A DNA stretch of 64,000 bases from an uncultured Bacteroidia bacterium (GTDB lineage: Bacteria; Bacteroidota; Bacteroidia; Bacteroidales; UBA932): NCBI GenBank assembly GCA_902801205.1, contig CADCHE010000001.1, positions 1 to 64,000 of the forward strand, read 5' to 3'. Below, piece by piece: positions 6,140 through 63,616 of this stretch (position 1 is its first letter; every line of letters begins with the position of its first letter). Both the position numbers and the translations under genes were made by a program. The notes under the pieces were generated by a model. It worked only from the letters and a program-made list of their open reading frames with translations, did not search any database and was not told where the DNA came from.

Positions 6140-6227
6140 GCCGCCCCGGTCCTCCTTGGAAAGCCCATTCGCCCGGATAGGGATGCACGCAGTGCAAGTT
6201 GGGCCTTCCAAGGAGGACCGGAGCGGC
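6140..6227 (+). repeat. Palindromic element copy 1 (long stem, conserved apical core)
   Basis: An inverted repeat with ~28-bp arms (6140-6167 and 6200-6227, two mismatches). It encloses a core reading ATTCGCCCGGATAGGGA, then the small hairpin TGCAC-GCA-GTGCA, then AGTT. The same core in the same strand orientation recurs at 38174, 42382 and 63539. Relative to copies 2 and 3 this copy has an extra T-A pair in the stem (GGTCCTCC opposite GGAGGACC), a compensated insertion. It lies in a gene-free region between divergently transcribed genes. Confidence 0.85.
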
Positions 6228-6336
6228 GGAACGGCGGTCGGAAGGTAGGAGCCTCCGGGGCGGGCGAGTACCCCTCCGGTTGACGGATGACGGCAGTCTT
6301 TCCGGAGGAAATGGCGCCAGACGGCGAAATGTTTCT

Positions 6337-6344
6337 TATCTTTG
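6337..6344 (+). promoter_or_regulatory. -7 box of the GH120 gene
   Basis: TATCTTTG matches the Bacteroidetes TAnnTTTG -7 element and lies 39 bp before the ATG at 6383, leaving a short leader. The -33 element is not obvious. Confidence 0.5.
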
Positions 6345-6382
6345 TTCAGACAGACAGTTGACATTCCGTAATCCTGAAAGAT

Positions 6383-8191
6383 ATGAAAAGAATCCTGACC
6401 CTCCTCCTGATTCTGCTTCCCTTCACCCAGGCCCCGGGCAGGGAATACCACGTCACCACCAGCGGCTCCGATGCCGCGGACGGAAGCCTGCAGTCGCCCT
6501 TCCGCACGATCTCCCGCGCCGCGCAACTGTCGCTTCCGGGTGACACTGTTACCGTGCACGGAGGAACCTACCGCGAATGGGTCGATCCGCTCTACGGGGG
6601 CACCGACGACGCGAATCGCATCCTCTACCGCGCCGCCGAAGGCGAAGTGGTGGAATTGAAGGGCTCGGAACCCGTCACGGACTGGAAGAAGGGAAAGGAC
6701 GGCGTCTGGACCGCCGTCCTTCCGAATTCCTTTTTCGGCGCCTACAACCCCTTTGCGGACCGGATCCACGGCGACTGGTTCGTGGATCTGGGCCGGGTGC
6801 ACCATACGGCGGAGGTCTACCTGGACGACGTGTCGCTCTACGAGGTGGAGCGGCGCGAGATCGTCGCCCGGACCGACACCCTCATCAAGAGCCGGCGCGA
6901 CCCCGAGGGGTCCTGCCTGATGTGGTATGCCGAAGTGGGCGCAACGGAGACGACCCTCTATGCCCGTTTCGGCACGGCCGACCCGCGCCGGAGCCGGGTG
7001 GAAGTGGCCGTCCGCCCCACCTGTTTTTATCCGACCCGGGAAGGTGTCAACTATTTGACCCTGCGCGGCTTCCATATCAGTCAGGCCGCCACGCAGTGGG
7101 GCGCCCCCACGGCGGAGCAGATCGGGATGGTTGCCGCCCACTGGAGCAAGGGCTGGATCATCGAGGACAACGTGATTACGAATTCCCGCTGCAGCGGAAT
7201 CACCCTGGGGAAGGAATACAGCACCGGACACAACCTGTGGGGCCAGCGCGGATTCGACGGAGCGACCGAATACAACGAGGTGATCTTCGCCGTCCTGCGC
7301 AAAGGATGGGACAAGCGGAACGTCGGTTCGCACATCGTCCGGAACAATGAAATCTCCTTCTGCGAACAGGCCGGGATCTGCGGGAGCATGGGCTGCGCCT
7401 TCAGCGAGGTCTGCGGGAACCATATCCACGACATCTGGGTGAAGAACCAGTTCGACGGACCGGAGATCGGCGGCATCAAGTTCCACGGTGCGGTGGACGC
7501 CTACATCCATGGCAACCGGATCCACCGGTGCCAGAAGGGCATCTGGCTCGACTGGATGGGGCAGGGCTCCCGCGTCTCCCGCAACCTCCTTTACGACAAC
7601 TTCTGGATGGACATCTATTACGAGGTGGACCACGGCCCGATGGTCTGCGACCACAACATCATGCTGTCGGATATGTCCCTCTGGGATATGTCCGAGGGCA
7701 TCGCCTATGTCCATAACCTGATGGCGGGCTACGTGGAGGCCGTCAGCCAGGGACGCTACACCCCTTACCAGCTGGACCACTCCACGCAGGTGAAAGGGCT
7801 CTACTTCATCACCTGCGGCGACGACCGGTTCTACAATAATCTGTTCTGCCGGGTCACCGGCGGCGCGCACCCCTACGGCCTGGACACCTATGCGGGCGCG
7901 ACGGTCTATGCGGAAGGCAACCTGACCTGCACCGACCCGGAAGTCCGCCTGGAAGAATCTCCGGACGGGAGCGTCTTCCTGACGTTCCTGCCGAAGGAAC
8001 CGGTGCCTTCCGGGAAGAAGGTGGACACCGGCGTGCTGGGACGCGTCCGGCTGAGCGGATACGCCTTCGAGCAGGCGGACGGGTCCCCCCTGCCGTTCCC
8101 GACGGATTTCCTGGGCCGCGACAGGAACCAGGACGCCCCCGTTCCCGGTCCGTTCGAGCAATCTTCCTTCACCCGCCTGAAGGTCTGGTGA
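6383..8191 (+). CDS. GH120 beta-xylosidase (right-handed beta-helix)
   Basis: 602 aa with a signal peptide, so probably periplasmic. The sequence follows the GH120 family (type enzyme: XylC of Thermoanaerobacterium) along its length: N-terminal YHVTTSGSDAADG, YREWVDPLYGG, LPNSFFGAYNP, GWIIEDNVITNSRCSG and the C-terminal LKVW. The helix is interrupted by a beta-sandwich insert near residues 90-210, as in the family. The probable nucleophile is Asp390 in GIWLDWMGQG and the probable acid/base is Glu414 in YYEVDHGP, matching the spacing of the known Asp-Glu pair. GH120 enzymes release xylose from xylo-oligosaccharides. It stands alone with its own promoter. Confidence 0.9.
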   Translation: MKRILTLLLILLPFTQAPGREYHVTTSGSDAADGSLQSPFRTISRAAQLSLPGDTVTVHGGTYREWVDPLYGGTDDANRILYRAAEGEVVELKGSEPVTDWKKGKDGVWTAVLPNSFFGAYNPFADRIHGDWFVDLGRVHHTAEVYLDDVSLYEVERREIVARTDTLIKSRRDPEGSCLMWYAEVGATETTLYARFGTADPRRSRVEVAVRPTCFYPTREGVNYLTLRGFHISQAATQWGAPTAEQIGMVAAHWSKGWIIEDNVITNSRCSGITLGKEYSTGHNLWGQRGFDGATEYNEVIFAVLRKGWDKRNVGSHIVRNNEISFCEQAGICGSMGCAFSEVCGNHIHDIWVKNQFDGPEIGGIKFHGAVDAYIHGNRIHRCQKGIWLDWMGQGSRVSRNLLYDNFWMDIYYEVDHGPMVCDHNIMLSDMSLWDMSEGIAYVHNLMAGYVEAVSQGRYTPYQLDHSTQVKGLYFITCGDDRFYNNLFCRVTGGAHPYGLDTYAGATVYAEGNLTCTDPEVRLEESPDGSVFLTFLPKEPVPSGKKVDTGVLGRVRLSGYAFEQADGSPLPFPTDFLGRDRNQDAPVPGPFEQSSFTRLKVW

Positions 8192-8213
8192 GTGCTTTCT
8201 TCCGGAAAAACGG

Positions 8214-8221
8214 TATCTTTG
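8214..8221 (+). promoter_or_regulatory. -7 box of the M24 aminopeptidase gene
   Basis: TATCTTTG (TAnnTTTG type) 16 bp before the ATG at 8238, in the 46-bp gap after the GH120 stop. It supports a separate transcript starting here and the choice of the 8238 start. Confidence 0.5.
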
Positions 8222-8237
8222 TAAAAACACCCTGCCT

Positions 8238-9650: not shown

Positions 9651-9651
9651 C

Positions 9652-10146
9652 ATGGAAACGGTCGCAATCATCCTCGCCATCGTTCTGGGCGTCGTCGGCA
9701 TCGTCGGGAGCATCGTCCCTGCCCTGCCCGGTCCGCCGCTCAGCTGGGTCGGACTGCTCGTCCTGTACATCTGGGGAAACGGTACCAACGGAGCGGGAGA
9801 GCCGATGTCCACGGCCCTGCTCCTGACCTGGCTCGTCATCACCGTCCTCGTGACGGTGGTCGACTACATCGTCCCCGCTTATTTTACCAAGCTCACGGGG
9901 GGCAGTAAGAAGGCCGGCGTCGGCGCGATGGTCGGCCTTTTCGTCGGCCTCATCTTCCCGCCGGTCGGCATCATCCTCGGCACCCTGCTGGGGGCCTTCC
10001 TGGCGGAGCTCCTCTTTGACGGCAAGACCGGCGTCGAGTCGGCCAAGTCGGCTTTCGGCGCCCTGCTGGGGTTTCTCTTCGGCACGGGCCTCAAGCTCAT
10101 CGTCAGCGCGCTGATGATGTATTATATTATTGTCTATATCGCATGA
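9652..10146 (+). CDS. DUF456 membrane protein
   Basis: 164 aa, mostly hydrophobic, with four to five transmembrane segments and glycine-rich turns (VALPGPPLSWVG-like start, GAMVGLFVGLIFPPVGIILG, GFLFGTGLKL). This is the pattern of the DUF456 family, whose function is unknown. It starts one base after the aminopeptidase stop and overlaps the next gene by 4 bp, so it is coupled to both neighbours. Confidence 0.85.
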   Translation: METVAIILAIVLGVVGIVGSIVPALPGPPLSWVGLLVLYIWGNGTNGAGEPMSTALLLTWLVITVLVTVVDYIVPAYFTKLTGGSKKAGVGAMVGLFVGLIFPPVGIILGTLLGAFLAELLFDGKTGVESAKSAFGALLGFLFGTGLKLIVSALMMYYIIVYIA

Positions 10147-12401: not shown

Positions 12402-12413
12402 CGGAAGATCCTG

Positions 12414-13649: not shown

Positions 13650-13680
13650 GAAACCTGTGGTTTAAAATCGGTTGTGCGGC

Positions 13681-13703
13681 AATATACAAATAATTTGTAT
13701 ATT
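13681..13703. promoter_or_regulatory. Perfect 23-bp palindrome over a divergent promoter
   Basis: Arms AATATACAAAT and ATTTGTATATT flank a single central A. The right arm overlaps the plus-strand -7 box TATATTTG (13698-13705), 33 bp before the ATG at 13739. On the minus strand TATATTG sits 30 bp before the start at 13649. The arrangement fits an operator for a dimeric regulator controlling both divergent genes. Confidence 0.6.
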
Positions 13704-13738
13704 TGAGAAGACTCCTTTCACACAACGCACTTGAAACC

Positions 13739-15559: not shown

Positions 15560-15565
15560 GACTTC

Positions 15566-35450: not shown

Positions 35451-37340
35451 ATGAAAGGGATCCGTCTTGAACTCCTGCTGCTCGGGATTTTCCTGGCCAT
35501 TTCGCCCTGCGGCGGGTCCGGGAACATGGCGTCCCGTTTCTCCAAAAGGATGGCGAGCCCTGCGGGTCATGTCCGTGCAGAAGTTTTTGCAAGGGACGGT
35601 AACCTGCTGTATTCCATTACGTTCCATAGGGAGGACGTGATCCTGCCTTCCGCCCTTGGCATCGTGGTCGATGGAGACACGGTCGGGTGTGATGCAAAGA
35701 TAAGATACCTGGGCAGGAGAACCATCCGGGAGACGTATCCCACCCGCGGTTTTCACGACAAGGCCGTCAACCGGTCCGTCCGGTATGAGTTCGCCCTGCA
35801 GCGAGGCCGACGGAGTGCGAGGCTGCAATTCCAGTTGTCGGAAGAGGGCGTTGCGTACCGGTATCTTTGGGACGAAGACCGGCCTGTCAGGATCGGGGGA
35901 GAACTGTCATCCTTCCGACCGCCCGAGGCGACCCCCGTATGGTTCTTTGAGCGGCCGAACAGTTGGAAGTTGAAATCTTATGCCGGGCTTTGGACGGAAA
36001 CGGTGTCCGACAGCCTCGGCAGCATCTCTCCGGAAGGGCCGGTGCAGGGTGCCCCGCTCGTGTTTGCGCTTCCTTCCGGGAAATACATGGCGCTGACGGA
36101 GGCGGCTTTGTATCACTACAGCGGCATGCGCTTCCGTGCGGATGCGGAAGGATCCCTCACGGCCGATTTTACGGAAGGCGCAAAAGGTTTCGAGGTCGCA
36201 GCCCAAGGACAAACCCCGTGGCGGGTGATCCTCCTGGCCTCGGACCTGGACGGTCTGGTATCTTCCGACCTGCTGTCGAATCTGAATCCTCCGCCGGACA
36301 TCGAGGGGGCCTGGACCGATGTGGGAGGAACGTGCGCCTGGAGCTGGTGGTCGGATACCTCTTCGCCCGAGGATCCGGAAAAGGAAAGAAAGGTGACGGA
36401 CCAGGCGGCGGCGCTGGGCTGCCGGTGGTCCCTGATCGATGAAGGCTGGGAGAAGTGGCCCCTCAAGTGGTCGCAGCTCAGGGAGATCTGCGCTCATGCC
36501 CGGGAGAACAAGGTGGGGGTTTTCGTGTGGAAGCACCAGGCGGAAATCTCCGATACGACCGCTGACTATTTGCCTTTGAGGACGTTCCTGGACAGCCTGG
36601 TCTCGTGCGGCGTCTCCGGCGTCAAGGTCGATTTCTTCAATGGTGAAACGAAGGCCCTTGTGGACCTGCAGGAAGCGATCCTCTCCGAAGCCGCGCGGCG
36701 TGGCCTGCTGTTCCTGTTCCACGGATGCCAGAAACCGACCGGAGAATTCCGAAGATATCCGAACGAAATCACCCGGGAGGCGATCCGGGGTTTGGAACTC
36801 AACAAGATGGGGCGCCCCCTTCCCGCTGCACACAATGTGGCGTTGGTGTTTACACGATGCATTCTCGGCAATGCTGATTATACCCCCATCGGATTCTCGA
36901 ATCCCGGGAACACGACCTGGGCCCACCAGCTGGCGACGGCGTACGCTTTCACCTCTCCGATGACCGTCATTGCGGAAAGTCCCGGTGCATTGCTGTCCAC
37001 CCCCGCTTACGCTCCCGCCCTTCCTTTCATCAGGGAAATGCCCACTTGCTGGGACGAGACGCGGGTCCTTCCCGGAAGCGACATCTCGAAGCGGGCCCTC
37101 CTGGCGCGGAGAAAGGGGAATACATGGTATGTCATCGCCCTGAACGGAGAGGAGCCGGCCGTCGTGGATGTCCGGCTGGATTTCCTTCCCGAAGGCCGTT
37201 GGCGCGGCTGCGGGCTGCTCGATTCGCCGGACCGGACCTTCGTCTCCTGCGAGGATGCCTTCCTTTCCGGCGGCACCCTGACCGTCAAACTGTCCGCAGG
37301 CGGCGGAGCGCTCTGGCGGCTGGACCGGGAAGCGCGGTGA
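35451..37340 (+). CDS. GH97 glycosidase, probably retaining (alpha-galactosidase-like)
   Basis: 629 aa with a signal peptide. A GH97 N-terminal beta-super-sandwich (about 40-270) is followed by the TIM barrel (GGTCAWSWWSDT, LIDEGWEKW, VFVWKHQAEI) and a C-terminal sandwich. Asp394 in VSGVKVDFFNGE occupies the position of the nucleophile of retaining GH97 alpha-galactosidases. Inverting SusB-type members lack this residue and use glutamates instead. I therefore infer a retaining alpha-galactosidase-type enzyme. Downstream there are about 1.1 kb without a clear gene. Confidence 0.88.
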   Translation: MKGIRLELLLLGIFLAISPCGGSGNMASRFSKRMASPAGHVRAEVFARDGNLLYSITFHREDVILPSALGIVVDGDTVGCDAKIRYLGRRTIRETYPTRGFHDKAVNRSVRYEFALQRGRRSARLQFQLSEEGVAYRYLWDEDRPVRIGGELSSFRPPEATPVWFFERPNSWKLKSYAGLWTETVSDSLGSISPEGPVQGAPLVFALPSGKYMALTEAALYHYSGMRFRADAEGSLTADFTEGAKGFEVAAQGQTPWRVILLASDLDGLVSSDLLSNLNPPPDIEGAWTDVGGTCAWSWWSDTSSPEDPEKERKVTDQAAALGCRWSLIDEGWEKWPLKWSQLREICAHARENKVGVFVWKHQAEISDTTADYLPLRTFLDSLVSCGVSGVKVDFFNGETKALVDLQEAILSEAARRGLLFLFHGCQKPTGEFRRYPNEITREAIRGLELNKMGRPLPAAHNVALVFTRCILGNADYTPIGFSNPGNTTWAHQLATAYAFTSPMTVIAESPGALLSTPAYAPALPFIREMPTCWDETRVLPGSDISKRALLARRKGNTWYVIALNGEEPAVVDVRLDFLPEGRWRGCGLLDSPDRTFVSCEDAFLSGGTLTVKLSAGGGALWRLDREAR

Positions 37341-37439
37341 TACGCCTGCCGGAGGGGGCCGGGGCGCTGCACTGATTAGCGGTCGCTTCCCGCCCGGGGG
37401 AGGTCGCTCCATGGAATCGGCCCTGGAAGGGGCTTCAGG

Positions 37440-37534
37440 TGTCGCGACCTCCCCGGGAAGGGGCGAAATAGGGCTGTATCAGCGAGGTCGCGACAAGTTT
37501 TCGGTCCCACAGGGCATTCCGGCTGTCGCGACCT
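37440..37534. repeat. Three copies of TGTCGCGACCT, one inverted
   Basis: The 11-mer occurs at 37440-37450 and 37524-37534 on the plus strand and inverted at 37485-37495. Related GGTCGC sequences occur just upstream. It could be a protein-binding site cluster or part of decayed repeat DNA. The surrounding stretch 37341-38468 carries no gene I can support. Confidence 0.6.
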
Positions 37535-37772
37535 GCTGCATGATGGAGAGGCAGGATCGCTCGCCATGCCGCGGGAGGTGCCGAATGCCATTGGACTTCG
37601 GTCCGGGAGCAGGTGAGAGGATGCTGCAATTCGGCAGCGAAATCCGTCGTGCCCTGAGAGGCGTTGATGCAGGATTGACTTCTCTCCCGATGCTTTTCTT
37701 GCCTCGGCGGCGAAACCGACATGCCTTGCGGGCGATTGTACGGCATGTCTTCTTTACTGCCAAATTGCAGAA

Positions 37773-37826
37773 TGCGGCGGGTTAGAACACGGCGGGTTAG
37801 AATGTGGCGGGCCGGAACGTGGCGGT
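37773..37826 (+). repeat. Tandem GGCGGGTTAGAA-type repeat
   Basis: About three and a half degenerate units of 15-16 bp (CGGCGGGTTAGAACA, CGGCGGGTTAGAATG, TGGCGGGCCGGAACG, TGGCGG). No coding signal; part of the repeat-rich spacer after GH97. Confidence 0.6.
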
Positions 37827-37987
37827 ACAAGATCCTGCCCGATACTTCCCGGGTGCGGACGGCGTTTGCTGTTTACCTTGGAACACGCCGCTCGCGACTT
37901 CGGTCCGGAAGAAATAGGGCGGTTTTTGCGCGCCCGTCTTCGCTTTTTTTGCACTCTGGTCCCCGTTATATTTGCGCGCCCGGCACC

Positions 37988-38016
37988 GCCGCCGCTCGAC
38001 TACCAAGAGCGGCGGC
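37988..38016. other. GC-rich hairpin
   Basis: Perfect 10-bp arms GCCGCCGCTC and GAGCGGCGGC around a 9-nt loop, 9 bp downstream of a TATATTTG box. No T-tract follows, so it is not a standard terminator; function unknown. Confidence 0.5.
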
Positions 38017-38173
38017 TACAACACGGCCGGCTGCGGGGGGCTCCGGGCAAGGGCCTTCCTCCCCGGCCGGTTGTTGCCGGAGATGCTTGCGTGCCTAGTA
38101 GTCTTGCTTGTGTGCCCAGTAGTTCTTCCAGTATTTTTTCATTTCACCGGATTGGAACCTGGCCTGCATCGGA

Positions 38174-38259
38174 GCCGCTCCGGCCTCCTTGGAAAGCCCA
38201 TTCGCCCGGATAGGGATGCGCGTAGCGCAAGTTGGGCTTTCCAAGGAGGCCGGAACGGC
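38174..38259 (+). repeat. Palindromic element copy 2
   Basis: Same organisation and strand as copy 1: ~28-bp arms with one mismatch around ATTCGCCCGGATAGGGA, hairpin TGCGC-GTA-GCGCA and AGTT. The small inner hairpin differs from copies 1 and 3 by a compensated pair change (A-T to G-C). Right of the palindrome it shares a further 30 bp with copy 3 (AAAAGAAGC, GGACACCGAAGGCGACGGC). Confidence 0.85.
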
Positions 38260-38297
38260 GGAAAAGAAGCCGGACACCGAAGGCGACGGCAAGTAGA

Positions 38298-38366
38298 CAG
38301 TCAGGCAAGCAGTCAGGCAAGCAGTCAGGCGAGCAGTCAGGCGAGCAGTCAGGCGAGCAAGCAAGC
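38298..38366 (+). repeat. 12-bp tandem repeat array within copy-2 flank
   Basis: About five units of GTCAGGCRAGCA followed by degenerate AGCAAGC units. In copy 3 the corresponding place is short, so the array looks like a local expansion between two shared flanking blocks. Confidence 0.75.
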
Positions 38367-38382
38367 TGGCGGGCAGGTAGCT

Positions 38383-38399
38383 AGGCAGGGCCTCACTTC
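38383..38399 (+). repeat. 17-mer shared with the 3' end of the GH92 gene
   Basis: AGGCAGGGCCTCACTTC is found here and at 42503-42519, where it includes the stop codon of the GH92 gene. It marks the outer end of the homology between the copy-2 and copy-3 regions. Confidence 0.7.
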
Positions 38400-38468
38400 A
38401 AACCCCGCAGCCCATGGAGATCTGGTCAATCTAATCCAAAAAAAAACGATTCTTTGTTTCAATCACTA

Positions 38469-38938
38469 TTACACCCCACCGTATTGAGTCTCTATTAGTT
38501 CCCATATCTCATGTTCACAGGAATACTCAAAATAATAACGCCCCCAGTCACTCAATCCTATGTTTATTCTCTTTTTATGAATGAGTTTTACGAATCTGTC
38601 AGTAATAGTAATAATAAGTTGATTACCCTTCAACTCATATGATACAAATAATGTTCTTTGCCCTTTCTGGAATGCTTTTTTACGTTCTTAGAATAATATG
38701 GCAATAAATCAACCGAAATATAAGTGGCATCAGAAATAGAATCATATGGATAGTCCGAGGGAAATCCGTCCTTGCAAATGAAAACACTATTTTTGCTTTT
38801 GTTATCACTCATTGCATACATTGTATTAATATATGTCTGTAAACAATGAGAGATCATTCCATCTAAAGATAAGCTACTCTGTCCAAATAGTTGATTTGAT
38901 AATGTAATATAGATAATAAGAATTAAATATTTTTTCAT
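38469..38938 (-). CDS. Secreted protein of unknown function, read through a possible -1 frameshift
   Basis: The zero frame starts at 38938 with a signal peptide (MKKYLILIIYITLSNQLFGQ) and stops after 102 codons. At 38675-38681 the minus strand reads A AAA AAG in phase with the codons, the classic -1 slippery heptamer. A -1 shift there continues KKAFQKGQRTLFVSYELKG and another ~55 residues to TAA at 38469, giving about 156 aa with a coherent composition. The alternative is a one-base indel in the A6 run. The gene is much more AT-rich than its surroundings. No family recognised. Confidence 0.6.
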
Positions 38939-38948
38939 ATTCTATCGT

Positions 38949-39360
38949 TTGGGGTTCACAAATCTTTTCATTAAGTACGTGTCGCTGGACACCAGGAACG
39001 CCGCAGTGAAATGCGTATCCTCCAGGAACCCTTCGATAACCAACGACTACAACCGGATGATCTCGACTCTCGATTCCTTGAAATGGAGCCTTTTCAGGGA
39101 GTTCAAGGCTACGGAACCGGCCGAGGGCTACACGAAGGAGCAGAACGACAGCCTGGACTTCATCCTCACCACGAAGATGAACGACACGATACTCGAACAG
39201 ATACACAGGATGGCCCCCCCTGCACACAGGCGACTTCATAGGCCTGAGCTGCATCTACAACCTGATGTCGATGGGCCTTGACAAGGAAGCCAAGTCGCTG
39301 TTCCAGACGATGGACGAGAGCATCCGCAACCGGGAGGAACTGTCAAGGCTCAATCTGTAG
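38949..39360 (+). pseudogene. Frameshifted gene fragment, unknown function
   Basis: A GC-normal fragment without a convincing start reads KYVSLDTRNAAVKC, SLKWSLFREFKATEP and on to ILEQIHRMAP; then a run of seven C (39214-39220) breaks the frame. With one C fewer the frame continues LHTGDFIGLSCIYNLMSMG to TAG at 39358. It looks like the 3' part of a larger gene whose 5' part has been lost, perhaps when the adjacent AT-rich gene arrived. A sequencing error in the C-run is possible. Confidence 0.55.
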
Positions 39361-39381
39361 CTTTCCCATCCTGACCGTCCG

Positions 39382-42240
39382 TCAATTACTGATTTTCAAA
39401 GGATTCCATTTGGTGTTCCACTGTCCCCAGGAGAATCCCTCCCCGATTCCGTAGGCATAGCCGATGTACTGTTGCCTGGACAGGTCGATGTGCCCACGGC
39501 CATCCCCGCTCAGTCCGACATTGTGGAGCCCGCTGCCGAGTTTCCCCGTCAGCCTCCTGTATTCATGGAACTTAAGGCCGTCCGAGGAGGCCCAGATCTG
39601 GAGGTAAGCCGAGGACGAGATGCAGTTCACGGCCTGGAGGGCTATGAATTTCTCCATCTGGGGGCAGTACTTGACGTCGCAATGGTCGGCCGCCGAAAGG
39701 TTGCTCGTATTGACCGCCGTCCCATGGAAGGTGAGATGGGCGGGCCAGAGAGGATCGTCGGCCGGGGCTGTCGCAACCCTGGTGCTGCCCTTGCCGTCGT
39801 TCCAGGTGTAGTACATGTACAAGGTGCCGTCCTTTTCGACCATGCTCGGCCCGCCGGCGCCCCACTGGGTCTTGTCCCCGTCGTAAGTCACGACCGGTTC
39901 GACTGGACCGCCTCCCCAGCCGCTGCCGTCCCATTTCTCCCATGGACCCCTGGGATCCCTGGAGCGGGACATGTACACATGGTTCTCCACCATGGCGGGG
40001 TTCTCCGTGGACGTGTAGCCGAGATAGTAGTAGTCCCCGAGCTTGATGACGCCGGGATCGCAGCACGAGAACTCGTCCCTCGCCCCCTTGGTGGGCTTGA
40101 GCACCATCTCCTCTTCAGACCACGTGTGCCCCCCGTCGGTGCTGTGCCAGTAGGCTACCTGGTCCCAGTACACGCCGTGAAGACCGGCCTCGGTGTCATA
40201 GTTTATGACTACATAGGGCGCCCCGGTGGTTTCTTCCCCGTCCTGGAAGGAGCGGATGTCCCTTCCTGGGATGGAGGCCTTCACGCCGGCGAACCAGACG
40301 CCCGCTTTCTCACTTCCCCGGCCAAGGGTGAGAAGGTAGCGGCCCGCAGGGAACGTTGAAGAATCTTCATTCCAGACCTCGCACCATGAATTGTCCTGCA
40401 TCTGGATGAAGCGCTTGCTGGCGATGGGAGGCCTGGAGACGGTCGTCGCGTAGGAAGAATCCCACTCGTACAAGGACATCGTCATGGATTCAGTCCCGTT
40501 GGTGTTCCATGTAGGGCAATATGCCTGGACGTCGTAGAAGGGCTTGTCCGTGGTGAAGGCGATCCCGACTTCGACCTTGGCGAGCTCCACGGGGAGGGTT
40601 CCTTCGTCCACGAACAGCTTCTCTCCCAGGTCGTCGACGAAAGTCGAGCCGCTGGCGGCGAACCACGCATCTAACGAGCCGTCATCGTTGATGATTATGG
40701 ACGGGCCGTAGCGGTAGGTCCCGGCCTTGTAGATGTCCCAGCCGGCTTCGGCGGTGAACTTGTACTCGTTCTTCACCTCGGGCTCCGGCTCCTGCTTCCC
40801 GTCGTCGGCAGGGGCCTCCTTGCCACAGGACAAGAGCAGCGCGAGGCATGAGATCACGGAAAAGAATCTCCGGATCAGGGGAAACAGCCTGTAGGGCATG
40901 TAACGGAACGGAGTGTCCACGCGGGCGGGAGACTTCACCACCGAGCGTTCATGGCTGAATGCGAGGAACGTGCGCTCGGAATGATAGGAACCCATGCCGG
41001 AATTGCCGACGCCGCCGAACGGGAGCCGCGGGTTGACCACATGCATTATCGTGTCATTGATGCACGCCCCGCCGGACGAGGTCTTCCCGATGAGGTCCCA
41101 GCCTGCCGCCGAACGGCCGAAATAGTAGAAGGCCAGCGGTTTTTCACGGGCCGTGACGAAGTCCGCCACCTCATTCCGGTCCTTGAAAGTGAGGATCGGG
41201 AATATGGGCCCGAAGATCTCCTCCTGCATCACCGGGGCGTCGGGAGACACCCCGTCAAGGAGGGTCGGTTCTATCCACAGCCTGTCCCTGTCGCTGCGCC
41301 CTCCGCAAACCACCTTGCCGTCCTTGAGATAACCGACGACGCGGTCGAAAGCCTTGGCGCGTACCATGTGGACATATTCCCCGGAATCCTCGGTTCCCTC
41401 CGGATAGAGTTCCGACACGCTCCTGCGGAACTCTTCGACGAACCGGTCCTTGATGTCCTCATGGAGGAAGAGGTAGTCGGGGGCTATGCAGGTCTGGCCG
41501 GAGTTGAGGCACTTCCCCCACGCGATCCTCCTGGCCGCCACCCCTATGTCGGCATCCCTGTCCACGATGCACGGGCTCTTGCCTCCCAGCTCGAGCACCA
41601 TCGGGGTCAGGTAGGGAGCCTGCGCAGCGGCGGCGACCTTCGCAAGGGACGGGCTCCCTGTCAGGAACACCATGTCGAACCTTATGGCGAAAAGAGCCGC
41701 GTTCACTTCGCGGTTGCCCTGGACCACCGCGACATGGTCTTCTTCGAAGGTGTCCTTGATGAAGGCTGCAAGGGTCGCCGACACGTTCGGGACGTACGGA
41801 GACGGCTTCAGCACTGCAGTACAGCCTGCCGCCACCGCCCCGACCAGGGGGCTCAGCAGAAGCTGGACGGGATAATTCCATGGGGCGACGATGAGGGTGC
41901 ATCCCATGGGCTCCCTGACTATGTGGCTGGTCGAAGGGAAGAGGGATAGAGGGGTCCGCCTGGAACGTTTCCGAGACCACCTGCCTACGTGTGAGATGGC
42001 ATCCTTCAACTCATTGAACACAAGGCCAATCTCAGTCATGAAGGCTTCTTCCCTGCACTTGTGCAAGTCCTTCCAGAGAGCTTCGTACAAGGGCTCCTCC
42101 CATTTTCGCAGGCCATCCCGGAAAGCGATGAGCCTTTCTTTGCGCCAGGGGATGCCGCGGGTGGTGCCAGTGGCATAGAAACGGCGCTGACTTTCAACTG
42201 TTTTCGCTATCTTTTCTGGGGATGTATTCTGAATTTCCAT
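39382..42240 (-). CDS. Class 3 aldehyde dehydrogenase fused in frame to a lipoprotein beta-propeller
   Basis: 952 aa. Residues 1-445 are a complete class 3 (fatty-type) aldehyde dehydrogenase: APWNYPVQL, Glu217 in LELGGK, nucleophile Cys251 in NSGQTC, EEIFGP and a normal C-terminus (PFRYMPYRLFPLIRR). Without a stop it runs into a lipoprotein signal (SVISCLALLLSCGKE, Cys472) and a ~480-residue exported domain with GH43/sialidase-like propeller motifs (DPGVIKLGDYYYLGYTS, WGAGGPSMVEKDG). Met448 could start the lipoprotein separately (39382-40899, 505 aa). A cytosolic enzyme joined to an export signal makes no biological sense as one product, so internal initiation or an accidental fusion is likely. 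Confidence 0.75.
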   Translation of the reverse strand: MEIQNTSPEKIAKTVESQRRFYATGTTRGIPWRKERLIAFRDGLRKWEEPLYEALWKDLHKCREEAFMTEIGLVFNELKDAISHVGRWSRKRSRRTPLSLFPSTSHIVREPMGCTLIVAPWNYPVQLLLSPLVGAVAAGCTAVLKPSPYVPNVSATLAAFIKDTFEEDHVAVVQGNREVNAALFAIRFDMVFLTGSPSLAKVAAAAQAPYLTPMVLELGGKSPCIVDRDADIGVAARRIAWGKCLNSGQTCIAPDYLFLHEDIKDRFVEEFRRSVSELYPEGTEDSGEYVHMVRAKAFDRVVGYLKDGKVVCGGRSDRDRLWIEPTLLDGVSPDAPVMQEEIFGPIFPILTFKDRNEVADFVTAREKPLAFYYFGRSAAGWDLIGKTSSGGACINDTIMHVVNPRLPFGGVGNSGMGSYHSERTFLAFSHERSVVKSPARVDTPFRYMPYRLFPLIRRFFSVISCLALLLSCGKEAPADDGKQEPEPEVKNEYKFTAEAGWDIYKAGTYRYGPSIIINDDGSLDAWFAASGSTFVDDLGEKLFVDEGTLPVELAKVEVGIAFTTDKPFYDVQAYCPTWNTNGTESMTMSLYEWDSSYATTVSRPPIASKRFIQMQDNSWCEVWNEDSSTFPAGRYLLTLGRGSEKAGVWFAGVKASIPGRDIRSFQDGEETTGAPYVVINYDTEAGLHGVYWDQVAYWHSTDGGHTWSEEEMVLKPTKGARDEFSCCDPGVIKLGDYYYLGYTSTENPAMVENHVYMSRSRDPRGPWEKWDGSGWGGGPVEPVVTYDGDKTQWGAGGPSMVEKDGTLYMYYTWNDGKGSTRVATAPADDPLWPAHLTFHGTAVNTSNLSAADHCDVKYCPQMEKFIALQAVNCISSSAYLQIWASSDGLKFHEYRRLTGKLGSGLHNVGLSGDGRGHIDLSRQQYIGYAYGIGEGFSWGQWNTKWNPLKISN

Positions 42241-42286
42241 GTGCCGATGATTTCTTATTACAGGGCGTTTCCGTGGCCCATAAACA

Positions 42287-42294
42287 CAAAATTA
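42287..42294 (-). promoter_or_regulatory. -7 box of the aldehyde dehydrogenase gene
   Basis: TAATTTTG on the minus strand (TAnnTTTG), 46 bp before the start at 42240. The -33 region has no clear TTTG. Confidence 0.5.
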
Positions 42295-42348
42295 CAAAAC
42301 AACCTTGGGTTTTTTACTAACTTGCACTCGATATTAAACGTAAGACTC

Positions 42349-42384
42349 ATGAAAAAGTTGTTTACATTGATTGCAATCGGAGCC
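42349..42384 (+). pseudogene. Start of a secreted-protein gene cut off by palindrome copy 3
   Basis: ATG at 42349 begins MKKLFTLIAIGA, a textbook signal-peptide start preceded by an AT-rich leader with TAACTTGC. After 12 codons the sequence passes into the palindromic element; the frame stays open to 42561 but reads only element and antisense GH92 sequence. It seems to be the relic of a gene interrupted or deleted at the element boundary. Confidence 0.5.
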
Positions 42385-42467
42385 GTCCCGGCCTCCTTGG
42401 AAAGCCCATTCGCCCGGATAGGGATGCACGCAGTGCAAGTTGGGCTTTCCAAGGAGGCCGGAACGGC
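42382..42467 (+). repeat. Palindromic element copy 3
   Basis: Arms of 28 bp with one mismatch surround ATTCGCCCGGATAGGGA, hairpin TGCAC-GCA-GTGCA and AGTT. Very similar to copy 2, including the right flank. It lies 45 bp beyond the stop of the GH92 gene and directly after a truncated signal-peptide coding start. Confidence 0.87.
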
Positions 42468-42512
42468 GGAAAAGAAGCGGGACACCGAAGGCGACGGCTG
42501 GCAGGCAGGGCC

Positions 42513-45500
42513 TCACTTCGTCAGGAACTCGAGGGTGCCGCCGGCCATGATGGCGTCGTAGGAGAGGAAAGGTTCCTGCAGCGTCTGCCCGTTCAGCCGG
42601 ACCTTCTTCACCTGCCAGCCGGTCTCCGTCTTCCGGTCGCACAGGACCGTGAACGTCCGGCCGTTCTCCAGGTGGAGGACAGCTTTCCGGTACAGCGGTG
42701 CACCCAGGGCGAACCGCCCCGAAGCCGGGTCGACCGGATGGAAGCCGAAACTGCTCAGGAGGAACCACGAAGACATCTGCCCGCAGTCCTCGTTGCCCGA
42801 ATAGCCCGCCGGCGTGTCGAGGTACTGCGTCCGCATCACCTCATGCGCATACTGCTGCACCTTCTCCGGGTGGTCGGTATAGGCATACAGGTAGATGTAG
42901 TTGTGCACCGGCTCGTTCCCGTGGGCATACTGGCCGATCCGGCCGGAAGACTGCATGCTGGCGACGACGGACGGGTCCGCCTTCCACTGGAACAGCGAGT
43001 CCAGCCGTGCTTCGAAGGCCTTCTTCCCGCCCATCAGGCCGATCAGGCCCTCCATGTCGTGCGGGACGAAGAAGCGGTACTGCCAGGCGTTCCCTTCCAT
43101 GTACGGGTCGCCGTTCGGGCCGTAGGCAAACGGGTCGAAAGGCTCCAACCAGGCGCCGGAAGCATCCTTCGCCCGGAAGAACAACGTCTTATCGTCGAAG
43201 AGGTTCCGGTAGTTCTGCGCCCGCTTGCGGAAGTAGGCGGCATCCTCCGTCCTGCCGAGCGCCTCGGCGAGGGCGGCCACGCAGGCGTCGTTGTAGGAAA
43301 TCTCCAGCGTGCTCGCCACGGAGAAGGCCTGCGTCTCGTACGGGATGTAGCCGAGGCGGTCGAGTTCGGCGAACGGCGAACTCTCGTGCTCCCGCAGCGA
43401 GGTGGCCTTCACGGCCTCGTACGCCTTCTCCCGGTCCACGCCGGGAAGCCCCTTCAGCGCGGCGTCCACCACCACGGGGATGGCGTGGTTGCCGATCATG
43501 CAGTAGATGTCCGTCCCCCAGTAGGAGATCATCGGCAGGTAGCCGTAGATGTCGCAGAACGTCAGCAGGCTGCGCACGAAGGCGCCGTTGCGCGTCGGCT
43601 GGAGGATCGAATAGAGCGGATGGGCGCTCCGGAACGTGTCCCAGAGCGAGTAGGTGGTGTAGTAGTCCGTCCCGTCGGGCATCTTCCGGACGGCATGGTC
43701 CGGACCGGTGAACTGCCCGTCGACGTCGGAGAAGGTGTTCGGCTGGATGAAGGCGTGGTACATCCGGGTGTAGAAGATGCGCTTCTGCGCCACGTCCCCT
43801 TCGATGTCCACTTTGGCGAGTTCCTGCTCCCAGGCGTCGTCAGCGGCATCCCGGACGGCATCGAAATCCCAGCCCGGGTTCTCTGCATCGAGGTTCGCAG
43901 CCGCGCCGGCGCTGCTGACGGTGGAGAGGCCGACCTTGACGACCAGCGGTTCCCCGTTCGCTTCGAACTGCAGGAACGCCTTCACTTTCTTTCCGTGGAC
44001 GACCTCCGCCTGGTGGTAGACATTCTTGGAACGCATCCACCAGGAGCCGGGAACGTATTCCCGCCACAGGTACCAGTCCTTGACCGGCCGCGAGAAGCGG
44101 ATGCAGAAATAGACCTTGCGCAGGCGCTCCCATCCCGTGCTGATCTTGTAACCGACGAGGGTACAGGGATCCGTGAACTTGATCTCGGCATCGAGCAGGG
44201 CCGTGTTCAGGCCCGGCTGCCAGTAGCTGTAGATGACACCGCCGTGGACAAGGTCCAGCAGCAGGTTGTTTTCCGTTCCTGCCGGGAAGGTGTAGCGGTG
44301 CATCCCGGTCCGGGTCGTCGCGGTCAGTTCCGCGCGGACACCGTAGTCGCCCAGCCGGACGCGGTAGTAGCCCGGAGCAGCCTCCTCCTCCGCATGGGAG
44401 AAGGCGGAACTCTGGTCGGGCGCTTCGAGCATCCCTTCAAGCGGGCGCCCGGTGGGCATCAGCAGGATGTCCTGCAGGTCGGCCGCGCCGGTGCCGCTCT
44501 GGTGCGTATGGCTGAAACCGAAGATCCGGTCGCGGCCGTATTCGTAACCTTCGTGGGTGACGGAGAAGTCCTCCACGTCGGGGCTGAGCTGGACCATCCC
44601 GAAGGGCACCGTCGCGCCCGGGAAGGTGTTGCCGGCCAGGCTGCCGCCGTCGACGGCGCCCGTCCCGACGAAAGGATTGACAAAGCGGGTCCGCCGCTCC
44701 GACGAAGCATTTCTTTCCAGGTCGAACCGGTAGAGGAACACGTCTCCGTTCTCGCCCGGGTAGGAGACGTAAACGCCTCCGTCCCAGCCGCATACGCCTT
44801 CCGGCTCGTAGGGGCATACCGTGTCGTCCGTCCGGAAATTCCACGTCCGCCCGGTGGCCGGCTCGTTGACGGTCAGGTACGTGGGCTCTCCGGCGAATCC
44901 GCACGGGAAGAACTGGAGTCCCTGATACGCGCAGACACCCTGGTGCACGACCGGGTTGTTCATCTGCCCCGAAGGTTCCTTCCCTTCCACCGTCAGGCGG
45001 ACGGTCTTCCGGTGCTTGGACGGGATGGGGAAATCCCACACCTTCCCGTTCCAGTGCATGCACAGCCTGCCGGTCTGTTCATCGACGAACCAGCCGGTCC
45101 CGCATTGGACGGGCACGGGCGTGTCCGTGAGGAAGATCCGCTGGACTTCCACGGCATGGTCCGTATACAGGTCGTACACGTAGCAGGACCCGTCGTAGGT
45201 ACAGTCGGAGACGTAAGCCATCGGGAACTGTGACTTTGCCGAATACTTCTCCGTACCGAAGGAGGCGTTGTTGCAGTGCGATTTGTTGCCCGGCAGGTAA
45301 TAGGAGGAAACGAACTGCTTCGTGTCCAGCTGGTAAACGAGGACCTGCCCGCCGTGATGGAAGATGAAGGCATACCCGTCGCGGACGAGGAGCCCTTGGA
45401 CATGGCCGTCGACCGTAACGTCCTCCGGCGTGATTTCCCGCAGGTTCTGGACGAGGGAATGCTGCAGTTTCAGCCCGTCAGCGCGGGCGCCCCATGACAG

Positions 45501-45542
45501 GATGAGGACAATCAGTGCGAGAATGAGACGTAGATGCTTCAT
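42513..45542 (-). CDS. GH92 alpha-mannosidase with a large N-terminal extension
   Basis: 1009 aa with a signal peptide. The GH92 region starts at VNPFVGTG (Val288) and shows family motifs TFPGATVPFGMVQLSPD, GFSHTHQSG, TTYSLWDTFRSAHP, AHGNEPVHN and SGNEDCGQMSSW; the last two contain the calcium-dependent active site acids. GH92 enzymes are inverting, Ca-dependent exo-alpha-mannosidases on N-glycans or mannans. The ~265 residues before the GH92 domain (GQVLVYQLDTKQF, GTGWFVDEQTGRLCMHW) look like beta-propeller blades and are not part of the usual family. Last gene of the large locus, 2 bp after the SGNH gene. Confidence 0.92.
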   Translation of the reverse strand: MKHLRLILALIVLILSWGARADGLKLQHSLVQNLREITPEDVTVDGHVQGLLVRDGYAFIFHHGGQVLVYQLDTKQFVSSYYLPGNKSHCNNASFGTEKYSAKSQFPMAYVSDCTYDGSCYVYDLYTDHAVEVQRIFLTDTPVPVQCGTGWFVDEQTGRLCMHWNGKVWDFPIPSKHRKTVRLTVEGKEPSGQMNNPVVHQGVCAYQGLQFFPCGFAGEPTYLTVNEPATGRTWNFRTDDTVCPYEPEGVCGWDGGVYVSYPGENGDVFLYRFDLERNASSERRTRFVNPFVGTGAVDGGSLAGNTFPGATVPFGMVQLSPDVEDFSVTHEGYEYGRDRIFGFSHTHQSGTGAADLQDILLMPTGRPLEGMLEAPDQSSAFSHAEEEAAPGYYRVRLGDYGVRAELTATTRTGMHRYTFPAGTENNLLLDLVHGGVIYSYWQPGLNTALLDAEIKFTDPCTLVGYKISTGWERLRKVYFCIRFSRPVKDWYLWREYVPGSWWMRSKNVYHQAEVVHGKKVKAFLQFEANGEPLVVKVGLSTVSSAGAAANLDAENPGWDFDAVRDAADDAWEQELAKVDIEGDVAQKRIFYTRMYHAFIQPNTFSDVDGQFTGPDHAVRKMPDGTDYYTTYSLWDTFRSAHPLYSILQPTRNGAFVRSLLTFCDIYGYLPMISYWGTDIYCMIGNHAIPVVVDAALKGLPGVDREKAYEAVKATSLREHESSPFAELDRLGYIPYETQAFSVASTLEISYNDACVAALAEALGRTEDAAYFRKRAQNYRNLFDDKTLFFRAKDASGAWLEPFDPFAYGPNGDPYMEGNAWQYRFFVPHDMEGLIGLMGGKKAFEARLDSLFQWKADPSVVASMQSSGRIGQYAHGNEPVHNYIYLYAYTDHPEKVQQYAHEVMRTQYLDTPAGYSGNEDCGQMSSWFLLSSFGFHPVDPASGRFALGAPLYRKAVLHLENGRTFTVLCDRKTETGWQVKKVRLNGQTLQEPFLSYDAIMAGGTLEFLTK

Positions 45543-52919: not shown

Positions 52920-52930
52920 ACGCCTTCTTC

Positions 52931-54937: not shown

Positions 54938-54950
54938 CGTGCAAAAACTA

Positions 54951-56285: not shown

Positions 56286-56297
56286 TTCTTTTTATGG

Positions 56298-58223: not shown

Positions 58224-58237
58224 TTCCGTGTCCTCCA

Positions 58238-61200: not shown

Positions 61201-61636
61201 CCATGATGGCGGCACCCGGAAGCGGTTCGCCTTCCCGGTCCGTGACATAGCCGCTCAGGCGCGTGGGATTGCTCCGCGTCGCCTGCGGGGCGGCCCCGGC
61301 GGCGGCTTTCTTGGTGATGTAGACCTGGCGGCCGTCGATCTTGAAGGAGTTCTCCTGCCCTTCGAACAGTTTTCCCAGGACAGTGGTCAGATCCGCGTCC
61401 GTGAACTCGAGCGTCACTTTCCTGCTCTTGTCCACGTCCGCCGTGTTGTAGAAGAAGATGTAGGGGGTGGATGCCTCGATCATGGCGAGGACGTCACCGA
61501 CCGACTTTTCCTTTACGTTCAGGGTTACCAGGCTCTTCCCTTTTTCCTGCGCGCGGAGCGTCAGTCCCGTCGCCGGGAGCAGGCAGAGCGCCGCTGCAAG
61601 AAGCAGGAGGAGTCTACTGAGTCGTTTTGGAATCAT
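58238..61636 (-). CDS. SusC/RagA-family TonB-dependent transporter with STN domain
   Basis: 1132 aa. Signal peptide, then an STN domain (about 35-105: VTLNVKEKSVGDVLAMIE, VTLEFTDADLTTVLGKLFEG), a carboxypeptidase-regulatory-like domain (about 125-210: LSGYVTDREGEPLPGAAI), the plug (LAGNMAGIIAYQRTGEPGQD, ATALYGARGANGVILVTTKRG) and a 22-strand barrel ending NLGVNITFK. The STN domain contacts the FecR-type anti-sigma factor, which fits the neighbouring FecR and ECF genes. It imports large oligosaccharides across the outer membrane. Confidence 0.97.
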   Translation of the reverse strand: MIPKRLSRLLLLLAAALCLLPATGLTLRAQEKGKSLVTLNVKEKSVGDVLAMIEASTPYIFFYNTADVDKSRKVTLEFTDADLTTVLGKLFEGQENSFKIDGRQVYITKKAAAGAAPQATRSNPTRLSGYVTDREGEPLPGAAIMVKGSKRGVMTDENGAFTIDGIKVGTVLVVSSLGMDDLEFTFTGQDNLTIALKQQSNALDEVTVVAFGTQKKESVIGAITTIDPGKLKIPSSNLTTALAGNMAGIIAYQRTGEPGQDNADFFVRGITTFGANTHPLILIDNIELTTTDLARLQPDDIASFSIMKDATATALYGARGANGVILVTTKRGAEGSAKVFARLENSFSQPTREVELADPVTFMRLANEAILTRNPEGNILYSQDKIENTGKPGANPYIYPSNDWYDMLFAKRASSQRANVSVSGGGKVAQYYVSGSATKDNGILKVDKRNSFNNNIDFRNYTIRANVDINVTPTTKMGVRMTGNFDDYTGPIHSGDEMYSMVVHSNPVLFPPYYEPDPEHLYTKHILFGNYNEGEYTNPYAQMVRGYKDRNRSQMLSVIDVSQDLSFITQGLSLSAMFNISRLAEFSVSRAYNPFYYTMSQYDSFTGEYALKELNETSGTEYLGYSESGKTVQSTLYTESRLNYNREFGKHGISGLLVFTTREALNANAGSLQLSLPSRNAGLAGRFTYNYASKYFAEFNFGYNGSERFSKNHRWGFFPSAGVAWLVSNEPFWKNIKPVVSNLKLRYSYGLVGNDQIGSASDRFFYLSNVDMNAGGRSASFGETSNKGGAGINVSRYANDNITWETSYKHNYAAEIGLFNKLNIIAEYFTEHRTNILMNRAYIPSTMGLTAAVRANVGEARAHGVDIQADYQQVWNRDFWTSARANFTWSTSRFDVYEEPNYAEHWRSHIGYSLSQNWGYIAERLFVDDEEAANSPSQNFGNVYGGGDIKYTDVNRDGKIDQKDMVPIGNPTSPEIIYGFGFSAGWKGLDASVFFQGLANESFWINASATSPFQGQTQLLKVYADSHWSEDNRDLYALWPRLSNYVNANNVQSSTWFMRDGSFLRLKQVELGYTLPHKLTDRAHIENLRVYLSGSNLFTWSRFRLWDVEMAGNGLGYPIQRVVNLGVNITFK

Positions 61637-61679
61637 AGGAATAGGATTTAGTAGTTATTATAGATAGTGTTTAGAGATC

Positions 61680-62918
61680 TTATTTCTTCTTGTTCCCCCA
61701 TTGGATGACGTGCGCGCCGTCGCGGATGACGAAGTTGAAGGAAGCGATCTGCATCAGGCCGGTGAGGAGGGTCGACAAGTCGTCCCGCAGCTCCAGCGAC
61801 CCGTAACAGATGACCCCCGACTTGCTCTCCGGGAGCACCAGGCTCACGTTGTAGAAGCGCGCCAGCCGGACGAGGACGTTCTCGAGCGGTTCGTTCTCGA
61901 ACTTGTACACGCCCTGCGTCCACGAGGTGTACAGGTCGGTGTCGACCAGCAGGACGCTGGTGCCCTCCGGACGCTTCTCGAAGGCCTGGCTGGGGGTCAG
62001 GGCGACTTCGCTGCCTTCCAGGGAGACCGTGACGCCCCCCTTCACCAGGACGACTTGCGAATAATCATCCGTGGAATAGGAGGAGAGGTTGAACTGCGTG
62101 CCGGTGACGCGGACGTCGAAATCCTTCGAACGGACGACGAAGGGCCTTCCGTCGTGGGCGACGTCGGCGAAGATCTCGCCGTCCACCTCGATCATGCGCG
62201 TGTCGCCGGAGAACGTCTTCGGGTAGCGGACGGTCGTTCCGGCGTTGATTTTCAGGGTGGAACCGTCGGACAGGGTCAGCGAGGCCATCTTTCCGTAGGG
62301 GACGATGATCCGGTTGAGTTCGACCTCCGGCAGGGCCGGCATCTCGATCTGCGGGACGGTGTCCTTCTTCGTTTCGCGCACGTTGCCGTCCACTTTGAGC
62401 TGGCCTTGCGGGTTGTAATTGACATCCGGCTTGCTGCCTTCCAGTTCGATTTCCTGCCGGTCGGAAACGATGACGACATTGTCACTTTCCTGCGCCTGCG
62501 TTACCAGGACGAAGCCGGGGTCAACCCGGATTTCCTTCGGCGCCCGGTTCTCCTGCTGCGGGAGGAGCAGGAAGAGGGAAAGGGCCGCTGCGGCGGCCTC
62601 CAGGACGGTCCGCACGCTCTTCCAAAGGGCAATGTCTTTCCGGGAGGAGGCTTCGGCGGGGGCTGTGTCCGCTTCCGCGGCCGACGCCTCGATCCGGCGC
62701 CAGGTCGCTTCCAGGTCTTCGCGTCCGGCGGCGGGAGCGCTGTTCTTCCAGCCGGTCAGGGCGAGGACGGCATCGGTATAGGTGTAGATGTCCAGTGCCC
62801 CCGCGTCGATGAGGGCGTCCCAATAGCGCTTCGTCTCCGGTGTCGGGGAAAGGACGGAGCGGATGAACATCTCGTCTTTCAGGTAATCTTCAATCGAATA
62901 TTTCTTGTAGTCGTTCAT
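61680..62918 (-). CDS. FecR-family anti-sigma factor
   Basis: 412 aa. A cytosolic N-terminus, one transmembrane helix near residues 105-122 (VLEAAAAALSLFLLL), and a periplasmic FecR domain (VPYGKMASLTLSDGSTLKIN, GEIFADVAHDGRPFVVRSKDFDVRVTG-type region) with a C-terminal STN-like end (FENEPLENVLVRLARFYNVSL). It holds the ECF sigma until the loaded SusC signals. Between the sigma gene (18 bp) and susC (43 bp). Confidence 0.93.
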   Translation of the reverse strand: MNDYKKYSIEDYLKDEMFIRSVLSPTPETKRYWDALIDAGALDIYTYTDAVLALTGWKNSAPAAGREDLEATWRRIEASAAEADTAPAEASSRKDIALWKSVRTVLEAAAAALSLFLLLPQQENRAPKEIRVDPGFVLVTQAQESDNVVIVSDRQEIELEGSKPDVNYNPQGQLKVDGNVRETKKDTVPQIEMPALPEVELNRIIVPYGKMASLTLSDGSTLKINAGTTVRYPKTFSGDTRMIEVDGEIFADVAHDGRPFVVRSKDFDVRVTGTQFNLSSYSTDDYSQVVLVKGGVTVSLEGSEVALTPSQAFEKRPEGTSVLLVDTDLYTSWTQGVYKFENEPLENVLVRLARFYNVSLVLPESKSGVICYGSLELRDDLSTLLTGLMQIASFNFVIRDGAHVIQWGNKKK

Positions 62919-62936
62919 TTTCTTTCTCTTCTGCGG

Positions 62937-63458
62937 TCAGCGGCTTTTTTCGACGGTTTCGCTCAGGAAGATCCTGCGCAGCTTGCCAACGGCCCTTCCG
63001 AACAGGTTCTGGGCCGACTGGCGCTCGATGGAGAGGTGCTCGGAGATCTCCTGGAAACTCATCCGCTCGACGAAGCGCAGGAACAGGATCTCCCGCTGGC
63101 GGTCCGTCAGGCACGAAATCATTTCCCTGGCCAGGGATTCCTGCATCCGGAGTTGCTCTTCACCGATGATCTTTTCTTCGATGGTTCCGATCTCCGGGAC
63201 ATTCACCTGGGACAGGTCGATGCGCCCCGGCCTGCCCTTCTTCATCTTGTACAGTTTGTACCGGAGCGATGCGAACAGGTAGTTCCTGGGATTCTCCGCC
63301 TTGGAAAAAGCTTCCATGTTGCGGTGGATGTCCAGGAACACTTCGTGCAGGGCGTCCTCGACCAGGCCCTTGTCCGGACAGATTTGCAATCCGTACGAAT
63401 AGAGCCGGTCGGCATATTGTTGGTATATGCCTTTCAGGGAGTGGTCCACTTTTTCCAT
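62937..63458 (-). CDS. ECF RNA polymerase sigma factor
   Basis: 173 aa. Region 2 (YADRLYSYGLQICPDKGLVEDALHEVFLDI) and region 4 (CLTDRQREILFLRFVERMSFQEISEHL) are complete, as in the Bacteroidetes ECF family tied to FecR and SusC. It probably activates the locus below on sensing of its glycan. Its upstream region holds palindrome copy 4 at ~80 bp and a TATATTTC box. Confidence 0.95.
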   Translation of the reverse strand: MEKVDHSLKGIYQQYADRLYSYGLQICPDKGLVEDALHEVFLDIHRNMEAFSKAENPRNYLFASLRYKLYKMKKGRPGRIDLSQVNVPEIGTIEEKIIGEEQLRMQESLAREMISCLTDRQREILFLRFVERMSFQEISEHLSIERQSAQNLFGRAVGKLRRIFLSETVEKSR

Positions 63459-63538
63459 CTACTTATATTAGAGTCGGAAAACGTGGAAATATACTCATTT
63501 TTAGAAGATTTTTTTTTATTGGATGGAATATACGCACT

Positions 63539-63616
63539 GGCGGGCCTCCCCGGAACGGACATTCGCCCGGACAGGGATGCTCGAAGAGCAAGTTGGCCGT
63601 TCCGGGGAGGCCCGCC
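63539..63616 (+). repeat. Palindromic element copy 4 (diverged stem, same core)
   Basis: 20-bp perfect arms (GGCGGGCCTCCCCGGAACGG and its complement) have a sequence largely different from copies 1-3, yet enclose the same core: ATTCGCCCGGACAGGGA, hairpin TGCTC-GAA-GAGCA, AGTTGG. Stem change with kept pairing plus a conserved loop indicates selection on structure. It lies 8 bp after the stop of the gene at 63625 and upstream of the ECF sigma gene. Confidence 0.87.

Follow-up and report, generated by a model that had tools for sequence, protein, structure and literature searches.

A window of 64,000 nucleotides, the whole stretch of DNA analysed here, which comes from the genome of an uncultured Bacteroidia bacterium, carries four copies of a palindromic element that is genuine and REP-like and probably acts at the level of DNA. 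That it is a small, non-autonomous REP-like DNA repeat which is read as a folded single strand is held with about even confidence. The observed basis for this reading comprises an outer stem and an inner hairpin supported by covariation, a frozen tip, changes in the arms that are almost purely of the Watson-Crick type, a presence at 14 loci of the home genome, and the finding, in a second species, of a copy whose arms and site are different. Three further steps are conjectural, namely that single-stranded DNA would be the active form, that a protein would read the tip, and that the element would have spread in the past by an HuH-like route.

The four copies lie on one strand at the limits given in the original prediction (Table 1). 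A core pattern of 20 nt, searched with up to three mismatches, matches four times in the window, always on the plus strand (shuffled sequences: mean 0.04, maximum 1), and an independent inverted-repeat scan returned the same limits for all four palindromes. The changes that had been described for the middle pair of the inner stem (A-T, G-C and T-A) and the compensated T/A insertion in the outer stem of copy 1 are likewise found in the window copies. Copy 4 does have a different outer stem that still pairs, but to call its pairing perfect is slightly too strong, as one A.G cell lies beside the core; copy 1 has one A.C cell. The apical core, predicted as a TGCnC/GnGCA stem with a GNA triloop, stands with an addition, which is a second, invariant mini-hairpin, CCC-GGAYA-GGG. 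The statement that all copies lie between genes holds for the neighbours supported by Pfam, but long ORFs without a Pfam match overlap copy 1 (6098-8230, minus strand) and copy 4 (61701-63776, plus strand), and an ORF of 171 aa spans copy 2.

Table 1. Palindromes and conserved tips of the four copies in the window.
Feature	Position	Strand	Method or result
Copy 1, entire palindrome, including paired T/A insertion in outer stem	6140..6227	+	core pattern and inverted-repeat scan
Copy 1, conserved tip: ATTCG, CCC-GGATA-GGG mini-hairpin (6172-6182), A, TGCAC-GCA-GTGCA hairpin (6184-6196), AGTTG	6167..6201	+	
Copy 2, entire palindrome	38174..38259	+	ssDNA fold -39.2 kcal/mol, z -8.2
Copy 2, conserved tip: GTA triloop; variable inner pair is G-C	38200..38234	+	
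Copy 3, entire palindrome; end 46 nt from 3' end of GH92 gene 42513-45542 (-)	42382..42467	+	
Copy 3, conserved tip: GCA triloop	42408..42442	+	
Copy 4, entire palindrome, arms largely different; end 9 nt from 3' end of minus-strand ORF at 63625	63539..63616	+	
Copy 4, conserved tip: GAA triloop; variable inner pair is T-A	63561..63595	+	

The home genome (G000; 2,466,125 bases in 22 contigs, 98.7% complete) contains the exact 17-nt core 15 times, and a 27-nt pattern for the tip, allowing up to three mismatches, matches 20 times at 14 loci, with no match of a reversed control pattern. Twelve of the 20 cores are intact palindromes of about 87 nt, and the inverted-repeat scan puts the length of the element at about 74-88 nt. 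Seven others, each without part of an arm, lie in three tandem clusters (one core on contig C6, four with a spacing of 55 nt on C13, two on C18), and the remaining one, C11:5597, has a recognisable tip and decayed arms. In the C13 cluster (L036:2465-2735), five tandem tips follow each other with a period of 55 nt, only the first of which has a left arm, an arrangement that looks like slippage at a hairpin. Outside the palindrome and its near flank, the copies mostly share no sequence. Each contig with several loci has a single orientation (four loci on C1 and two each on C2, C11 and C13), for which the coin-flip chance is 1/64, or 1/32 leaving out the decayed copy. GC skew around the copies has no clear link with their orientation. 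A scan of 269 kb, composed of the window and stretches around the copies (about 11% of the genome), returned 15 strong inverted repeats, 13 of which carry the core. An insertion of the core into ready-made palindromes was rejected for the scanned DNA, because no arms of this kind occur there without the core.

The 12 intact copies align over 87 columns without a gap and fold into a 22-bp outer stem, unpaired TTCG, the mini-hairpin CCC-GGAYA-GGG, a single A, the hairpin TGCNC-GNA-GNGCA and unpaired AGT; with the second apical mini-hairpin, the top therefore becomes a three-way junction. Among these copies, 97.2% of 360 cells are paired and 18 of the 30 pairs have changed on both sides. All five covariation measures lie beyond what any of 500 shuffles attains, and slid controls stay at or below 0.120, compared with a score of 0.393. 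When the copy of a second species, G1007, is added, 96.4% of 390 cells are paired, 19 of 30 pairs have changed on both sides and the score is 0.412, so that a fold kept while its stem is rewritten is well supported by both sets. The inner hairpin has covariation support at one pair, whereas the CCC-GGAYA-GGG mini-hairpin receives none, since its CCC/GGG pairs are invariant.

The contrast between tip and arms is large: six copies, hand-picked as dissimilar types, have on average 90% identity in the tip versus 56% in the arms, and in their 15 pairwise comparisons 131 stem positions have changed on both arms versus 14 on one. Of the 286 outer-stem cells in the set of 13 sequences that includes the G1007 copy, 226 contain the commonest pair and 43 a different Watson-Crick pair; three are G-T, four A-C and ten other mismatches. 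The triloop is GNA in 19 of the 20 cores (17 caught by a regular expression, three read from the listing of the tip pattern), with A in eight, C in six, G in four and T in one as the free base; the sole exception is GAC at C13:135641. Extraordinarily stable DNA mini-hairpins are described as following the rule of a GNA loop, with N free, on top of G-C pairs (PMC4686876), and the element has just such a C-GNA-G loop with a free N, although the rule concerns a structural DNA motif and the element is a repeat family. This exceptional stability is not reflected by the energy model used here, in which the GNA hairpin and its complement receive equal scores; nor do the energy models give a strand preference for copy 2, whose complement folds at -39.6 kcal/mol (z -9.9), next to -39.2 kcal/mol (z -8.2 versus shuffles) for the marked strand.

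Pure Watson-Crick swaps and few half-changed pairs are also what mutation alone could leave behind, if template switching copied one arm onto the other and selection on the stem were not needed; such homogenisation of the arms of inverted repeats has been reported (PMC8604942). As the full explanation this is very improbable, since it leaves the frozen unpaired tip and the GNA rule unexplained, and the one-armed copies on C6, C13 and C18 as well as the decayed C11:5597 have not been restored.

Covariation is normally taken as proof of a structured RNA, and a 3'-UTR stabiliser, a small RNA (the alternative named in the original prediction) or an unusual terminator would be the classic reading of it. 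The position of the copies also lends itself to this, since at 9 of the 13 non-decayed loci the 3' end of the right-hand gene faces the element, as assigned by reading ORFs and Pfam matches, with several ORFs lacking a Pfam match; copy 1 and the C10 locus are not so oriented, and copy 2 and C2:85k are ambiguous. The right-hand genes backed by Pfam include GH92, DnaE, AspRS, acyl-CoA dehydrogenase, AMP-binding, sulfatase and GFO/IDH/MocA genes and, on C18, an ABC transporter gene; the gene context of the copies is mixed rather than fixed, and in G1007 the element is flanked on both sides by the starts of genes. A separate T-tailed hairpin stands between the left-hand gene and the element at C10 and C11. 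A structured RNA is nevertheless quite improbable, because only three G-T cells in 286 (with four A-C cells, which correspond to wobble pairs of the opposite strand) stand against 43 Watson-Crick swaps. No T-run occurs within 10 nt of either end of the palindrome in any of the 12 intact copies, on either strand, and a terminator scan of 63300-63800 returned nothing; the intrinsic terminator was rejected for want of a T-run directly after the stem. A TAnnTTTG box within 200 nt upstream is found in one of 17 copies and absent in 16, which, with the near-absence of wobble, the missing T-runs and the mixed contexts, disfavours a small RNA.

The earlier remark that no named family fits holds against Rfam 15, which on the window matches one tRNA and nothing over the element; over the element at six loci, at E <= 1, it gave two matches to animal or plant miRNA families, both scoring well under the threshold (29.8 of 70 and 24.9 of 100 bits). 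It holds as well against a text search of the literature for five stretches of the tip, which found no occurrence, and the parts of the literature covered by subject searches contain no description of this element. Taken together, the near-pure Watson-Crick changes, the GNA rule, the single orientation per contig and the lack of a fixed gene context probably favour a folded DNA over an RNA gene. If so, the element would be a compact case for telling covariation at the level of DNA from covariation at the level of RNA, and could lead on to an enzyme for which the shape of the tip matters and the arms do not.

If the repeat is read as folded DNA, the marked strand, when it becomes single-stranded, for example during replication, would fold into the long stem, the three-way junction and the GNA mini-hairpin, and would present the invariant unpaired bases ATTCG, GGAYA, A and AGTTG. 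A protein acting on this folded strand would read the unpaired bases and the triloop and would need the stem merely as a stem; it is proposed that such blindness to the sequence of the stem is why the arms drift together around a tip that stays fixed. The past spread may have been driven by an HuH (Y1-type) enzyme or a similar one that works on single strands, either supplied in trans or lost since then, and correction of the arms by template switching may contribute to their perfect pairing. A stricter version, which is somewhat unlikely, is a shape-addressed repeat, distinct from REP/TnpAREP and attC/IntI, in which an enzyme of single-stranded DNA would read the three-way-junction tip with its GNA mini-hairpin and be blind to the arms; each copy could therefore have arms of its own, with template switching holding the two in register.

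Canonical REPs are described as short hairpins of about 20-40 nt (PMC3733652), and TnpAREP proteins are reported to bind folded single-stranded DNA in a strand-specific way, via loops or irregularities of the stem together with GTAG (PMC8266576). The element resembles canonical REPs in being dispersed, multi-copy, palindromic and mostly extragenic (20 cores, 14 loci), which agrees with the REP/MITE-like repeat of the original prediction, as does the copy with other arms at another site in another species. It differs from them in its greater length of about 74-88 nt, in having no Y1 gene flanked by copies, and in the foot of the hairpin, where a search of both strands, reaching from 8 nt outside to 4 nt inside, found GT[AG]G in none of the 12 intact copies. 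REPs of subclass 2.6 in Bacteroidetes are described briefly as having "atypical secondary structures", termed weak, without the GT[AG]G foot and with copies elsewhere in the genome (PMC6006769). Compared by this description, the element is also an intergenic, multi-copy, strand-marked palindrome without GT[AG]G, but it has a very strong fold of about 87 nt, arms that vary within one genome, a three-way-junction tip and no adjacent Y1 gene. Judged from that short description, the subclass 2.6 structures are the nearest published thing to the element.

Integron attC sites are recognised as a folded single strand, with the information in unpaired bases and with arms that are free in sequence but paired (described in part in PMC8266576). 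The element would be like them in all of these respects. It differs from them in that its conserved part is the tip and not the ends, and in that there is no array of gene cassettes. An attC site was rejected as an explanation, with RYYYAAC before the core in none and GTTRRRY after the core in five of the 12 intact copies. MITEs and palindromic intergenic repeats such as ERIC are short, non-coding, dispersed and non-autonomous. The element shares these properties, but has no conserved terminal repeats, its arms being private to each copy. That it is a MITE of a DDE transposon or recombinase, whose terminal inverted repeats would be the arms and whose remnant or binding site would be the tip, fits a short palindromic non-coding repeat at many loci, yet is unlikely because the centre and not the ends is most conserved, and inspection of their flanks by eye revealed no target-site duplication at the copies.

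A Y1 transposase, proposed in the original prediction as a possible mobiliser, was sought, and no link to the copies was found. The home genome has one Y1-like gene, of 308 aa, on contig C8, which holds no copy of the element, and none beside any copy, the completeness of 98.7% leaving room for a missed gene. This gene (C8, about 100251-101177; L040:907-1833, minus strand) is divergent and Y1/RAYT-like, with NHTH and YVFNNP motifs and GC-rich low-complexity flanks; it scores 19.8-21.1 bits with Pfam PF01797 (cut-off 23) and 21.2 bits with NCBIfam REP_Tyr_transpos (cut-off 80). Downstream of it lie two copies of a different, 105-nt repeat, the ends of which are partly complementary and the fold of which is weak (z -1.4). 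At E <= 0.01, PF01797 has a match in 13 of 21 genomes, including the home genome (below threshold) and the carrier G327, and none in the carrier G1007. Around 15 Y1 loci of the genus, 11 inverted repeats (three of them copies of one repeat) occur in 47 kb, versus five in 130 kb of other loci. One of them, at L144, lies 23 nt before its Y1 gene and has a stem that carries two hairpins at its apex. Candidate REP-type repeats of other species of the genus are the long palindromes, or short hairpins in repeated form, close to their Y1 genes (L144:1817-1899, L142:1978-2076 and L150). These structures offer an analogy to the reported "atypical" REP structures and not a link.

The element has few carriers among the genomes searched, which are three species with 20 cores in the home genome and one in each of the other two. 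With a covariance model, R1, one of 199 genomes of the family (E <= 1e-4) and one of 393 of the order (E <= 1e-3) had matches, the home genome both times; this search is lossy, as it returned 16 matches in the home genome in the family run (including copy 2 matched on its opposite strand) and 11 in the order run. The tip pattern with up to two mismatches matched in 17 of 400 genomes of the genus, with genuine-looking matches only in the home genome and G327, and a looser pattern with up to three mismatches matched in 105 of 398 genomes of the family (completeness >=80%), with genuine-looking matches only in the home genome, G327 and G1007; in both surveys genuineness was judged by reading the listed letters, and the reversed control also matched in a number of genomes. 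The phages and plasmids searched with copy 2 had no match, and neither had the viral contigs searched with exact patterns.

This distribution bears on a host-maintained, immobile DNA site, in which a host protein of replication, segregation or nucleoid structure would bind the extruded hairpin. A tip that is frozen despite strongly diverged arms and the single orientation within each multi-locus contig would suit such a site; it is still rather unlikely in view of the small number of carrier species, of which one has 20 cores and the others a single core apiece, and of the tandem, one-armed and decayed (C11:5597) copies. The REP-like DNA repeat is the reading preferred here.

The G1007 copy (L131:3099-3185, 75.4 bits), whose arms differ from those of the home copies, immediately precedes a unit of two genes; the home genome has a copy after the second gene of this unit and none before the first. 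The G327 copy lies within a block that is identical to the home contig C5 from position 201 to 1000 and almost identical as far as 1100, with one gap of 49 bases near the start; inside the AspRS gene the identity drops to 73-93% per 100 bases. Such identity indicates that the block was recently shared between the two species, most simply by recombination. The block (L066:1-1100 and L100, the latter on G327:C33) is about 0.9-1.1 kb long, ends inside the AspRS gene, carries the element and joins two species that otherwise differ. No relative of the window at 61700-64000 was found among 40 genomes, and G327 shares only small pieces of 36900-43500, so that no empty site or insertion border could be aligned.

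Other repeats occur close to the copies. The non-coding stretch of about 2 kb before copy 2, 169 bp of which match G327 at 87%, contains three GGTCGCGACA motifs in alternating orientation at 37440-37533 (0.35 expected), and this motif is also present inside a repeat of about 440 bp common to contigs C6 and C18. Just after copy 2, at 38298-38359, the 12-bp unit CAGTCAGGCGAG is repeated in tandem in 5.2 copies.
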